Shown in pieces: positions 47,913 to 51,841 of a stretch of 64,000 bases of DNA. The notes beneath the pieces were generated by a model, which was not told where the DNA came from, made no database searches, and worked only from the letters and a program-made list of their open reading frames with translations. Origin of the DNA: Salipiger abyssi (GTDB lineage: Bacteria; Pseudomonadota; Alphaproteobacteria; Rhodobacterales; Rhodobacteraceae); contig NZ_CP015093.1 of NCBI RefSeq assembly GCF_001975705.1, positions 496,001 to 560,000 of the forward strand. Reading direction: 5' to 3'. Every line of letters starts with the position of its first letter. The stretch's first letter is position 1. The translations under genes were made by a program, and so were the position numbers.

Positions 47913-49706
47913 ATGACAACAAAAGCCGCCACCGTCAGCCCGGAACGCGAGAAACTGGAAGACAATCTCGCGAAAGTCGAGGAATTGACCCAGCGCCTGA
48001 TGGATGCGCTGGCGCATCGCAAACCGATGCCCACCGGTCTCAGCGGTCCCGAGCCCACGCTCTATGCCAAGGCCGCGCAGGCCTATTGGCAGGAATGGCT
48101 CAACAACCCCACCAAGGTGTTCGAGCAGCAGGTCGGGTTCTGGGGCAAGTCGCTGTCGCATTTCATCGAGGCGCAGAAGGCGCTGTCGGAGGGCAAGCTC
48201 GCCCCGCCTGAGGATCCCGGCCCGCGCGATCGCCGGTTCAAGAACCCGCTCTGGGACAGCCACCCCTATTTCAACTTCATCAAGCAGCAATATCTCATCA
48301 ATGCCGATGCGATCCGCGGCGCGGTGGACGAGATCGAAGAGCTCGACGACACCGAAAAGCGCCGGCTGCGCTATTTCGCGCAGCAGATCACCGACATGAT
48401 GGCGCCGACCAATTTCTTCGCCACCAACCCCGATGCGCTGCAAAAGGCGCTGGAGACCGAGGGCGCGAGCCTGGTGAAGGGCCTGGAAAACCTCGTTGCC
48501 GATCTCGAAGCCAATCACGGCGAGCTGGTGGTGCGGCTCGCGGATGAAGACGCCTTCTCCATCGGCGAGAACATCGCCACCGCCGAGGGCAAGGTGGTCT
48601 GGCGCAACCGCATGATGGAGCTGATCCAGTATTCGCCCACCACCGATCAGGTGCGCGAGACGCCGCTGCTGCTCTTCCCGCCGTGGATCAACAAGTTCTA
48701 CATTCTCGATCTGAAGCCTGAGAACAGCCTGATCCGCTGGATCGTCGATCAGGGCTACACGCTCTTTGTGGTGAGCTGGATCAATGCCGACGAGAGCTAT
48801 CGCGACGTGGGCATGGAGGATTACATCGAGGATGGTTTCCTCACCGCCATGCGGCTGGTGCGCGAGATCTGCGGCGTCGAGCGCATCAATGTGGTGGGCT
48901 ACTGCATCGCCGGCACCACGCTGGCGCTCACCCTGTCGCTGCTGAAGAAACGCGGCGACAAGCAGATAAAATCCGCCACTTTCTTTACCGCGCTCACCGA
49001 TTTCAGCGATCAGGGCGAGTTCACGCCCTTCCTCCAGAATGATTTCATCGACGCCATCGAGGAGGAGATCAAGGCGAGCGGCATCCTGAAAAGCTTCATC
49101 ATGGCGCGGACCTTCTCGTTCCTGCGCTCCAACGATCTCATCTACACGCCGGCGATCCGCTCTTACATGATGGGCGAGACCCCGCCGGCCTTCGATCTGC
49201 TCTACTGGAACGGCGATGGCGCCAACCTGCCCGGCCGCATGGCGATGCAGTATCTGCGCGGGCTCTGCCAGGACAACCAGTTCTCGGAGGGCAAGTTCGA
49301 GCTGATGGGCGAGACGCTCGACATCAACGACGTGGATGTGCCGCTGATTTCGATCACCGCCGAGACCGACCATATCGCCGCCTGGAAAGACTGCTATCGC
49401 GGCGTGCAGAAGATGGGCTCGCGCTCGAAGACCTTCATCCTGTCGGAATCCGGCCACATCGCCGGCATCGTCAATCCGCCCAGCAAAAAGAAATACGGCC
49501 ATTACCTAAACCCCGACCTCAAGCTCGATGCCGAGGCCTGGCAGAAGACGGCTGAGTATCATCAGGGCAGTTGGTGGCCGGAATGGGAAGCCTGGCTACG
49601 CAAGCGTTCGGGCAAGCTGGTGCCGGCGCGTCAGCCCGGTGATTCGGAGCATCCCGCGCTCGAGCCGGCCCCCGGAACTTACGTACGCGTAAAGGCCAAT
49701 CAGTAA
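47913..49706 (+). CDS. phaC: Class I poly-3-hydroxyalkanoate synthase PhaC
   Basis: Polymerises 3-hydroxybutyryl-CoA into PHB; 597 residues, the class I length. The catalytic cysteine is C331 in VVGYCIAGTTLAL; the charge-relay Asp and His are in ITAETDHIAAW and ILSESGHIAGIVNPP. The N-terminal helical domain (NPLWDSHPYFNFIKQQYL) is conserved. Two phasin genes follow on the same strand. Confidence 0.97.
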   Translation: MTTKAATVSPEREKLEDNLAKVEELTQRLMDALAHRKPMPTGLSGPEPTLYAKAAQAYWQEWLNNPTKVFEQQVGFWGKSLSHFIEAQKALSEGKLAPPEDPGPRDRRFKNPLWDSHPYFNFIKQQYLINADAIRGAVDEIEELDDTEKRRLRYFAQQITDMMAPTNFFATNPDALQKALETEGASLVKGLENLVADLEANHGELVVRLADEDAFSIGENIATAEGKVVWRNRMMELIQYSPTTDQVRETPLLLFPPWINKFYILDLKPENSLIRWIVDQGYTLFVVSWINADESYRDVGMEDYIEDGFLTAMRLVREICGVERINVVGYCIAGTTLALTLSLLKKRGDKQIKSATFFTALTDFSDQGEFTPFLQNDFIDAIEEEIKASGILKSFIMARTFSFLRSNDLIYTPAIRSYMMGETPPAFDLLYWNGDGANLPGRMAMQYLRGLCQDNQFSEGKFELMGETLDINDVDVPLISITAETDHIAAWKDCYRGVQKMGSRSKTFILSESGHIAGIVNPPSKKKYGHYLNPDLKLDAEAWQKTAEYHQGSWWPEWEAWLRKRSGKLVPARQPGDSEHPALEPAPGTYVRVKANQ

Positions 49707-49729
49707 AATCAACCGGTTGCACAATTGCG

Positions 49730-49740
49730 CTGCATCGCAG
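49730..49740. promoter_or_regulatory. PhaR-type box CTGC-ATC-GCAG before phaP1
   Basis: Perfect CTGC-N3-GCAG, the motif bound by the PHB-sensing repressor PhaR in Paracoccus denitrificans. It lies 24 bases behind phaC and 14 bases before the next box. Confidence 0.6.
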
Positions 49741-49753
49741 AAATTTCCCTTGA

Positions 49754-49772
49754 AATGCTGCGGTGCAGCATT
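49754..49772. promoter_or_regulatory. Extended PhaR-type box before phaP1
   Basis: AATGCTGC-GGT-GCAGCATT: 8-bp perfect arms with the CTGC-N3-GCAG core. It lies 66 bp before the phaP1 start, a good position for an operator over the promoter. Confidence 0.7.
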
Positions 49773-49837
49773 CATATTCTAGGGAGCTGATGAATTCGCG
49801 GGGTGGGCCCGCGAGGCAGACAGACAGGAATATGACA

Positions 49838-50284
49838 ATGGCCGCCAAGACCCAAGACTTCACCACCATGATGAAAGACATGATGGGCGCGTTCCCCGTG
49901 GACACCAAAGCCATGGACGAAGCCTTCAAGACCACCGCGACGCTGAACGAGAAGCTCTCCGCCGTGGCTCTGGAAGCCGCTGAAAAATCGACCGAGATCT
50001 CCGCCAAGTGGACCAAGGACACGCTGACCAAGCTGACCGACATGTCCAAGGTCAAGAAAGAGCCGGCTGACTACGCCAAGGCGATGTCCGACTTCGCGTC
50101 GGCTCAGGCAGAAGTTGCCGCCGAGAACATGGCCGCCTTCGCCGAGATCGCCAAGAAGGTCCAAATGGACACCGTGGAACTGATGATGGCCGCCGGCAAG
50201 GACTTCACCGAAGACGCCAGCGCCGCCGTCAAGAAAGCCACCGACGACATGACCTCGGCCGCCAAGAAAGCGACCGCGAAGTAA
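49838..50284 (+). CDS. phaP: Phasin PhaP1
   Basis: A 148-residue amphipathic, helical, cysteine-free protein beginning MAAKTQDFTTMMKDMMG. It holds the phasin_2-type segment EPADYAKAMSDFASAQAEV and ends with alternating alanines and lysines. Phasins coat PHB granules and limit their size. I prefer the ATG at 49838 to the one at 49832 because AGGAA lies 7 bases upstream. Between PhaR-type boxes and an sRNA-like 3' region. Confidence 0.92.
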   Translation: MAAKTQDFTTMMKDMMGAFPVDTKAMDEAFKTTATLNEKLSAVALEAAEKSTEISAKWTKDTLTKLTDMSKVKKEPADYAKAMSDFASAQAEVAAENMAAFAEIAKKVQMDTVELMMAAGKDFTEDASAAVKKATDDMTSAAKKATAK

Positions 50285-50396
50285 TCGGTTTCCGGGCCTC
50301 TCCTCCCGGGGCCCGGATCAGAAATTGCGCCCCTCTCCTCCCAATCCGGCGCAATGACGTGGGGGCGGGTTCATATTGCGAGCTCGCCCCTTTTTT
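50285..50396 (+). ncRNA. Candidate anti-Shine-Dalgarno sRNA in the phaP1 3' region
   Basis: Two consecutive hairpins both show CTCCTCCC in the loop: TCCGGGCC/GGCCCGGA arms (50291-50317, motif at 50300-50307) and ATTGCGCC/GGCGCAAT arms (50324-50355, motif at 50335-50342). A terminator follows. This is the layout of the CCUCCUCCC-motif (CcsR/cuckoo) sRNAs of Rhodobacter and of alphaproteobacterial anti-SD sRNAs such as MmgR, which acts on phasin expression in Sinorhizobium. It would arise as the 3' end of phaP1 mRNA or from its own promoter; neither is shown. Confidence 0.6.
50361..50396 (+). terminator. Rho-independent terminator behind phaP1
   Basis: GGGGCG with CGCCCC around an AT-containing loop, then six Ts. 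It closes the phaP1 transcript and the sRNA candidate. Confidence 0.75.
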
Positions 50397-50506
50397 CTTT
50401 ATTTGCAAAAGCTTGCACGGATGCGGTGCGACCCTTCGCCGGTGACGGCGGAGTCCCGCGCATTTCGTGACGCTTTTCTGAAATCGCGGCTGGCAGCCTT
50501 GCGCTG

Positions 50507-50517
50507 CTGCGCCGCAG
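50507..50517. promoter_or_regulatory. PhaR-type box CTGC-GCC-GCAG before phaP2
   Basis: Perfect CTGC-N3-GCAG in the gap before the second phasin, 68 bp from its start, the same distance as the box before phaP1. With the terminator behind phaP1 this points to a separate phaP2 promoter. Confidence 0.6.
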
Positions 50518-50584
50518 AATGCCACACTCAAGGCAGCGTAAGCCTAGGCGGGGCACCCGCCGCAATTCCGCAAGGAGAGACACA

Positions 50585-51139
50585 ATGGCACTGACGCAAG
50601 ATTTCACGAAACCTTTCAAAGATATGATGGGCAACTGGCCGATGGATTCCGATGCGATGGAGGGCGCCTGGGCGACGTCTGCGGGATTCGGCGAGAAGCT
50701 GTCGAACATCGCGTTCGGCGCGGCTGGCAAGACCACCGATATCTCGATGCAGTGGACGATGGAAACGCTCGGCCGCATGGGTGATATGACCAAGGCCAAA
50801 TCCGACCCGGCGGATTACGCCAAGGCGATGAGCGATTTCGCCACCGCCCAGATGGAAAGCGCCACCAGCCACATGACCGCACTCGGCGAGGTCGCCAAGC
50901 AGATGCAGAGCGAAACGCTCGAGCTGATGATGTCGACCGGCAAGGATCTGGCGGATGATGCCTCGGCTGCCGCCGCGACCACCGCCAAGGCAACCGAAGA
51001 GGCCGCCGAAAAGGCGACCGCCGCTGCCACCAAGCCCGCCGCAGCCGCCAAGCCCGCCGCAGCGGCTCCGGCCAAGCGCAGCACCTCGACCGCGACCACG
51101 CGCAAGACCGGCACGACCGCGTCCAGCAGCACGAGCTGA
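50585..51139 (+). CDS. Phasin PhaP2 with alanine/lysine-rich tail
   Basis: A 184-residue paralogue of the upstream phasin: both share DPADYAKAMSDFA-AQ-type segments, a methionine-rich start (FKDMMG) and similar spacing. After residue 130 it has an extra tail rich in alanine, lysine, threonine and proline (AAKPAAAAPAKRS), reminiscent of histone-H1-like tails seen in PHB-nucleoid linker proteins. AAGGAGAG lies 7 bases before the ATG at 50585. A strong terminator follows. Confidence 0.9.
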   Translation: MALTQDFTKPFKDMMGNWPMDSDAMEGAWATSAGFGEKLSNIAFGAAGKTTDISMQWTMETLGRMGDMTKAKSDPADYAKAMSDFATAQMESATSHMTALGEVAKQMQSETLELMMSTGKDLADDASAAAATTAKATEEAAEKATAAATKPAAAAKPAAAAPAKRSTSTATTRKTGTTASSSTS

Positions 51140-51162
51140 GCGCGCAGACAGCGCTGAAACGG

Positions 51163-51193
51163 AAAACGCGGCCTCCGGGGCCGCGTTTTTTTT
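51163..51193 (+). terminator. Rho-independent terminator behind phaP2
   Basis: AAAACGCGGCC, a 5-base loop, GGCCGCG and eight Ts: a textbook hairpin 23 bases past the phaP2 stop. The A run on the left also lets it work for the opposing scoB transcript. Confidence 0.92.
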
Positions 51194-51214
51194 GGTTTCA
51201 CTAAGATACCGCGA

Positions 51215-51841
51215 TCAGTTGACGATGGTCGCCTCGGTGGCGGCGCGCAGCTCGTCCTCTGTCACGCCATCGGCCAGCTCGACGATCTTCAGCCCGCCTT
51301 CCACCACATCAAGCACACCGAGATTGGTGATGATGCGGTTGACCACACCGGTGCCGGTCAGCGGCAGGGTGCAGGCCTTCAGCACCTTGCTTTCGCCGTG
51401 CTTGTTGGTGTGGTCCATCACCACCACCACGCGGCCCACGCCGGCCACCAGATCCATGGCGCCGCCCATGCCCTTGACCAGCTTGCCCGGGATCATCCAG
51501 TTCGCCAGGTCGCCGTTCTCGGCCACTTCCATGGCGCCCAGGATCGCCGCCGCGATCTTGCCGCCCCGGATCATGCCAAAGGACATGGCGCTGTCGAAAT
51601 AGGCCGTCTTGGGCAGCTCTGTGATGGTCTGCTTGCCGGCATTGATCAGGTCGGGATCCTCCTCGCCCTCATAGGGAAAGGGGCCCATGCCCAGCATGCC
51701 GTTTTCCGATTGCAGCGTGATCTCCTTGTCGCCCACATAGTTGGCGACCAGCGTCGGGATACCGATGCCGAGATTCACATACATGCCGTCTTCGAGTTCC
51801 TCGGCCGCCCGTGCGGCCATCTGATTGCGATCCCAGGGCAT
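51215..51841 (-). CDS. scoB: 3-oxoacid CoA-transferase subunit B
   Basis: Beta subunit, 208 residues. NLGIGIPTLVANYV near 22, the catalytic glutamate in SENGMLGMGPFPY near 50, and the glycine-rich GAMEVAENGDLANWMIPGKLVKGMGGAMDLV. With subunit A it moves CoA from succinyl-CoA to acetoacetate, feeding ketone bodies from PHB breakdown into central metabolism. It faces the phasin genes tail-to-tail and overlaps scoA by one base (TAATG). Confidence 0.95.
   Translation of the reverse strand: MPWDRNQMAARAAEELEDGMYVNLGIGIPTLVANYVGDKEITLQSENGMLGMGPFPYEGEEDPDLINAGKQTITELPKTAYFDSAMSFGMIRGGKIAAAILGAMEVAENGDLANWMIPGKLVKGMGGAMDLVAGVGRVVVVMDHTNKHGESKVLKACTLPLTGTGVVNRIITNLGVLDVVEGGLKIVELADGVTEDELRAATEATIVN

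Follow-up and report, generated by a model that had tools for sequence, protein, structure and literature searches.

An anti-Shine-Dalgarno hairpin in the phaP1 3′UTR of Salipiger abyssi and other Rhodobacteraceae: a candidate silencer of phaR

The 3′ end of the phasin gene phaP1 in Salipiger abyssi raises the question of what an anti-Shine-Dalgarno (anti-SD) loop is doing in the 3′ untranslated region (3′UTR) of a phasin mRNA, and which ribosome-binding site, if any, it might address. In the window (by which we mean the whole 64-kb stretch of S. abyssi DNA that was analysed), phaP1 is flanked by a PHA synthase gene and a second phasin gene and is followed by two hairpins and a terminator.

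The phaP1 locus and the fold of its 3′ end

The locus comprises the following features.

47913-49706, plus strand: phaC, class I PHA synthase (TIGR01838, 750 bits; PF07167)
49730-49740, plus strand: PhaR operator CTGCNNNGCAG, distal copy, upstream of phaP1 (exact match)
49750-49778, plus strand: promoter-like TTGAAA-17-CATATT of phaP1 (consensus scan)
49758-49768, plus strand: PhaR operator CTGCNNNGCAG, proximal copy, within the phaP1 promoter spacer (exact match)
49838-50284, plus strand: phaP1, phasin (Phasin_2; PF09361, 25.8 bits, cut-off 24.9)
50291-50317, plus strand: hairpin 1, UCCUCCC loop, lineage-specific (fold, congener counts)
50324-50355, plus strand: hairpin 2, conserved anti-SD hairpin with CTCCTCCC at 50335-50342 (fold, covariance model, congeners)
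50361-50396, plus strand: intrinsic terminator with six Ts
50507-50517, plus strand: PhaR-type box CTGCNNNGCAG before phaP2 (exact match)
50585-51139, plus strand: phaP2, second phasin (PF09361, 29.9 bits), with SD AAGGAGAG, a weak complement of the loop

The original prediction described, after the phaP1 stop codon (last base 50284), a pair of perfect 8-bp stems looped by CUCCUCCC and then a terminator with six Ts, and both sequence and fold bear this out. Hairpin 1 has 8 perfect pairs (10 including an inner G-U and a C-G) and a UCCUCCC loop at 50301-50307; since this loop starts at 50301, one base into CTCCTCCC (50300-50307), the minimum free energy (MFE) structure has the opening C of that octamer paired. 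Hairpin 2 consists of the stem ATTGCGCC/GGCGCAAT, also with 8 perfect pairs, closing a 16-nt loop, and the terminator stem occupies 50361-50391 with 12 pairs, its T run extending from 50391 to 50396. The fold of the phaP1 3′ region was matched by none of 200 shuffles (z -3.26). The CTCCTCCC octamer is by itself no rarity in the 64-kb window, with 4 copies against 3.3 expected. On the 5′ side, a sigma-70-type consensus scan of 49600-51300 returned one promoter-like match, 0.4 being expected, and a GC-rich hairpin, TCGCGGGGTGGGCCCGCGA, is present in the phaP1 5′UTR at 49796-49814; 19 of the 110 family loci introduced below have GGGGTGGGC[CT]C upstream of phaP1, and variant loops can be seen in further loci.

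Conservation and covariation of hairpin 2

Homologues of PhaP1 were identified in 175 of 198 Rhodobacteraceae genomes, of which 110 (the 30 best and 80 from further down the listing) contributed one locus each to a family set. The PhaP1 of the window is 91-95% identical to its Salipiger and Alloyangia homologues, and a PhaP1-type protein profile applied to 115 genomes of the class found matches in two, both Rhodobacteraceae. TCCTCCC is present in the first 120 nt past the phaP1 stop in 90 of the 110 loci (shuffle mean 1.8, maximum 7, over 40 rounds) and the shorter CCTCCC in 101 (shuffle mean 9.6, maximum 14). Most copies lie in loops: 101 of 111 CCTCCC copies 3′ of phaP1 fall in MFE hairpin loops, TCCTCCC lies strictly within such a loop in 83 of the 110 loci, and family loci typically carry one motif hairpin. 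Among 294 control genes, taken from 20 stretches of 20 kb from 20 genomes plus the window, TCCTCCC follows the stop codon in only two, one of which is the phaP1 of the window itself. A second set comprising the best 80 of 388 loci, with taxa partly overlapping the first 110 (Salipiger, Alloyangia, Roseivivax, Mameliella, Sagittula, Tateyamaria, Sulfitobacter, Ruegeria, Marivita, Shimia and others), gave TCCTCCC in 66 and CCTCCC in 76.

Closer to S. abyssi, the two hairpins part company. The terminator-proximal CTCCTCCC is found in all 20 Salipiger genomes (S. abyssi included), whereas hairpin 1 has TCCTCCC in three of the 20 and CCTCCC in five. Retention of the loop motifs in close relatives thus holds for hairpin 2 and fails for hairpin 1, indicating that the conserved element is a single hairpin before the terminator and that the two-loop form is local. 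The two-loop, CcsR-like architecture of the original prediction was therefore rejected as the general form, its first loop not being conserved. Individual loci depart from the single hairpin in other ways: L085 and L112 each have two motif hairpins 3′ of phaP1, and L057 and L065 carry an extra copy of the motif in the loop of the T-run terminator hairpin, after the first motif hairpin.

Covariation of the region across Rhodobacteraceae had been named as a check, and the stem of hairpin 2 does covary. A set of 32 hairpins chosen for like architecture aligned to a consensus fold of 6 pairs, of which 4 have changes on both sides; one column pair (12/39) is A-U in 15 sequences, G-C in 13 and U-A in 2. 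An alignment-free comparison used 100 of the 101 CCTCCC loci (one being too near the stop), taking the best-pairing copy where there were several. When both flanks come from one genome, they pair around the motif at an average of -19.6 kcal/mol, versus -12.4 (sd 0.32, 200 rounds) when exchanged between genomes, and at least six consecutive Watson-Crick pairs are formed in 71 of the 100, as opposed to 15% of exchanged pairs. The 14-nt left flanks are distinct in all 100 loci. As judged from these sequences, the stems change together while the loop motif is held, and the anti-SD hairpin with the loop motif of CCUCCUCCC RNAs is both conserved and covarying in the phasin 3′UTR across Rhodobacteraceae. 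A covariance model built from the 32 hairpins had hairpin 2 as its sole hit at E<=1 in the S. abyssi genome (45.8 bits; scoring covered 150 of the 1156 first-look candidates).

PhaR boxes and the ribosome-binding site of phaR

The R. sphaeroides PhaR site is CTGCNNNGCAG, and forming PHB draws PhaR to the granules (both from the accessible part of PMC12542648). Exact copies number 6 in the 64-kb window against 3.6 expected. The region of about 200 nt before phaP1 contains a PhaR box in 107 of the 110 family loci, compared with 1 of 247 in a rough control using 200-nt stretches upstream of background open frames, and at least one box precedes phaP1 in all 20 Salipiger genomes. The gene for PhaR itself, recognised by its N-terminal motif, lies downstream of phaP1 in 81 of the 110 loci, no more than 0.5 kb away in 78 of them and some 0.9 kb away in the other three; several of the remaining 29 stretches are too short to tell. 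It is unlinked to phaP1 in the S. abyssi genome, and in the 20 Salipiger genomes the two genes are either on separate contigs or 185 kb or more apart. The box is patchily distributed upstream of phaR (relaxed CTGCNNNGCA in 36 and exact in 15 of the 81 family loci; a slightly wider box in 2 of 20 Salipiger genomes), so that phaR autoregulation is not to be assumed here. Such autoregulation is reported in other bacteria, and a phaR mutant of S. meliloti shows a slight drop in phaR promoter activity (PMC12542648, accessible part).

The ribosome-binding site of phaR is unusual in a way that suits the loop. Taking the SD region as -20 to -4, with start codons called by a custom script that favours strong SDs, GGGAGG is present before phaR in 51 of 81 family loci, versus 12 of 246 background genes, 1 of 42 genes of the window and 0 of 110 phaP1 genes. 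It also precedes the unlinked phaR in 20 of 20 Salipiger genomes, as opposed to 1 of 62 phaR genes outside Rhodobacteraceae. The latter derive from 109 of 190 genomes of the class with a PhaR match (three of them Rhodobacteraceae), from which 70 others were taken and eight dropped for want of a callable start; their mean loop energy is -6.7, with 15 of 62 at -10 kcal/mol or better. The base preceding GGAGG is G in 51 of 59 phaR genes but in 11 of 36 background genes (Fisher 4e-8; P values for the phaR SD comparisons ignore shared descent). This G matches the C of the UCCUCCC loop, where the 16S anti-SD has U. The consensus loop outperforms this 16S anti-SD in pairing with the SD region of 85% of phaR versus 31% of background genes, and its mean energies are -12.5 for phaR, -5.9 for background and -5.8 for phaP1. 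For the S. abyssi genes the values are -13.5 for phaR, -7.1 for phaP2 and -4.3 for phaP1; among 288 genes from the background and the window, 4.5% match the strength of S. abyssi phaR. From these comparisons we infer that phaR is the best target found. GGGAGG occurs in about 5% of background genes, and other targets are therefore possible.

Within the family several comparisons do not bear the association out. The presence of the hairpin does not predict a GGGAGG phaR SD, which is found in 41 of 65 loci with TCCTCCC and 10 of 16 without, and even where CCTCCC is missing, 5 of 8 loci still have GGGAGG before phaR. Loops and phaR SDs from the same genome pair no better than exchanged ones (-14.74 versus -14.55, P 0.21, n=73), for which reason genome-specific coevolution of the two was rejected. 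The link between hairpin and phaR is thus strong at family level and does not show in these comparisons below it. The GGGAGG of phaR may simply be a strong SD, and its co-occurrence with the hairpin at family level may represent one evolutionary event.

The two phasin genes are poorer candidates. The SD of phaP2, singled out by the original prediction, pairs with the loop at -7.1, an ordinary value equalled by 35% of the 288 background and window genes, and phaP2 was rejected as a target. Self-targeting of phaP1 was rejected because its SD is weak: GGAGG is found in 0 of 110 phaP1 SD regions versus 36 of 246 in the background, the phaP1 SD being of AAGGA type, as if avoiding the loop of its own 3′ end. 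Cofolding of the whole 3′UTR with the leaders gives gains of -6.3 for phaR, -4.4 for phaP1 and -3.3 for phaP2, a small margin. Unconstrained whole-3′UTR duplexes do not favour phaR (phaP2 -42.9, phaP1 -42.5, phaR -40.8), a ranking that we set aside because such duplexes break the hairpins.

We consider it slightly better than an even bet (a probability of roughly 0.5) that the anti-SD hairpin of the phaP1 3′UTR blocks translation of phaR, acting as part of the mRNA or as an sRNA released from it, in a double-negative loop. The phaP1 mRNA would present the UCCUCCC loop just upstream of its terminator, the active form being the whole mRNA or, more likely, a short 3′ fragment freed by a ribonuclease such as RNase E. 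In the cell, the loop would pair with ribosome-binding sites of the GGGAGG type and translation would be blocked, the main target being phaR, the PHB-sensing repressor of phaP1. PHB granules would titrate PhaR off the DNA and phaP1 transcription would rise; the phaP1 3′UTR would then limit new PhaR synthesis, and the phasin-on state would persist. Were phaR autoregulated here, the hairpin would also counter the release from autoregulation. A broader proposal, to which we would give a little less than even odds, is that the phasin mRNA is bifunctional throughout the family, supplying both the granule coat and a PhaR-silencing hairpin in a memory loop for carbon storage, with the phaR SD shaped to the loop and the phaP1 SD escaping it. 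If correct, silencing of phaR by the hairpin would answer what sets the supply of PhaR during granule growth, which is not otherwise obvious, and would place a riboregulatory arm within the phasin mRNA that is relevant to PHB production. It would also mean that CcsR/ar14-like anti-SD loops can exist as single 3′UTR hairpins that score below Rfam gathering in the loci tried. Among the matches listed from the open-access literature, we recognised neither an anti-SD hairpin in a phasin 3′UTR of Rhodobacteraceae nor an RNA acting on phaR in this family.

Rival readings and related RNAs

Instead of a dedicated phaR silencer, the hairpin could be a broad-range anti-SD regulator like CcsR/cuckoo, lowering translation of many mRNAs with G-rich SDs during PHB metabolism, phaR being nothing special among them. 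It has in its favour that the loop motif is the same as in the CIN1 array of S. abyssi and in ar14 RNAs, that GGGAGG is found in 12 of 246 background SD regions, and that phaR has GGGAGG in 10 of 16 loci lacking TCCTCCC. We nevertheless think it unlikely in view of the strong enrichment at phaR (51/81 and 20/20) and the near absence of GGGAGG before phaR outside the family (1/62). Improbable to a greater degree is a cis role without mRNA pairing, as a stabiliser of the mRNA 3′ end, an aid to termination or a protein site (DUF1127/CcaF1-type or Hfq). The hairpin does adjoin the terminator, and L057 and L065 have a motif copy within the T-run hairpin, but the loop is held while the stems vary (100 distinct left flanks among 100), a pattern that stability alone fails to explain and that a protein site would.

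The frequent position of phaR just downstream (78 of the 110 loci have it within 0.5 kb, three more at about 0.9 kb) suggests another cis role, in which the loop covers the phaR SD on transcripts that read through from phaP into phaR. This was rejected, and we accord it very little probability, because the motif is kept where phaR is not downstream: TCCTCCC is retained in 25 of 29 loci in which no phaR was found downstream (some of these stretches being short), and CTCCTCCC in 20 of 20 congeners, in which phaR lies on a different contig or no closer than 185 kb. Hardly credible at all is the original prediction in full, a two-loop CcsR-like sRNA against phaP2 and stress genes. Two loops are present in the window and the whole-3′UTR duplex with phaP2 is slightly better than that with phaR (-42.9 and -40.8), though with the hairpins broken; the first loop is, however, unconserved in the genus, and 35% of 288 genes pair with the loop as strongly as the phaP2 SD.

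Anti-SD loops of this kind also occur elsewhere in the genome. Seven double motifs occur in S. abyssi as a whole, against one in a reversed-pattern control: five in a single array behind a DUF1127 gene, one at phaP1 and one orphan. The array forms a CIN1-type locus (L001:1251-1980; G000:C5:355535-356264), in which five two-loop units resembling CcsR follow the DUF1127 gene and at which no PhaR-type box was found. At the phaP1 3′UTR, the Rfam models for ar14/NfeR1 (RF02344) and CcsR1/cuckoo (RF02791) score 31.0 and 27.6 bits, short of gathering thresholds of 58.8 and 65.3. The CIN1 array (CcsR1 44.7-49.8 bits, ar14 up to 53.6) is also under gathering, so the cut-offs are strict here and do not alone decide membership. 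Of five relatives' phaP1 3′UTRs compared with Rfam, one had a weak ar14 match (L058, 29.8 bits), and none of the eight Rfam matches at E<=5 was to ar8/MmgR, for which Rfam may have no entry.

The orphan two-loop CTCCTCCC RNA (L007:1421-1548; G000:C5:1316927-1317054) has a copy in one congener (L273:1519-1646, minus strand). Each of the two has a short stem end and a T-run after its second motif, and 80 nt upstream of its first loop motif begins a PhaR operator, CTGCAATGCAG, which again ties anti-SD RNAs to PhaR; DNA similarity extends to the operator in only 1 of 19 congeners. Other genomes are richer in pairs of CTCCTCCC loops on one strand (G165 25, G006 15, G050 15, G107 14 and G018 13), and the listed pairs of G165 all lie within 1 kb (G165:C1:334949-335887), resembling an expanded array.

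Among described systems, the R. sphaeroides RNAs SorX, PcrX and CcsR resemble the phaP1 element in lying in a sense 3′UTR beside an intrinsic terminator, and a terminator of this type is likewise predicted, on sequence alone, at the phaP1 3′ end. The main text of the report on R. sphaeroides 3′UTR-derived sRNAs (PMC8625941), in its accessible part, mentions neither phasin nor phaP. CcsR1-4/cuckoo RNAs (CIN1) share with the phaP1 element the 3′UTR location, C-rich anti-SD loops and, in the S. abyssi lineage, the presence of two loops; the adjacent pair of motif hairpins exists in the window, with TCCTCCC in hairpin 1 of 3 of 20 Salipiger genomes. CcsR lies behind a DUF1127 gene (PMC10253847, accessible part), whereas the phaP1 3′UTR follows a Phasin_2 gene, and in S. 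abyssi CcsR-like units occupy the separate CIN1 locus, with five two-loop units scoring 44.7-49.8 rather than 27.6 bits. CcsR is further characterised by an RpoHI/RpoHII promoter, while the promoter scan at phaP1 covered the sigma-70 type. MmgR (ar8) of S. meliloti is a PHB-linked, PhaR/AniA-repressed RNA that affects phasin level (PMC8401924, PMC12542648; accessible parts), so a PhaR-repressed RNA controlling PHB, as proposed for the phaP1 3′UTR, exists in the class. MmgR is, however, a trans-encoded 77-nt RNA lowering phasins, while the phaP1 element belongs to the mRNA of a phasin and has the repressor as its best target.

NfeR1 of S. meliloti, from the ar14 family, also bears its anti-SD motif in loops on variable stems, but it is transcribed on its own from a dedicated promoter and has three CCUCCUCCC hairpins, whereas the phaP1 element sits in a phasin 3′UTR, has one conserved hairpin and, in S. 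abyssi, has two with UCUCCUCCC. Pairing of ar14 loops with a translation initiation region has its counterpart here in the computed complementarity to phaR, a predicted pairing. NfeR1 silences ntrB via its anti-SD loops and NtrC represses nfeR1 (PMC10746234, accessible part), and this double-negative NfeR1-NtrBC circuit is the closest demonstrated one, which the proposed phaP1-phaR loop would resemble.
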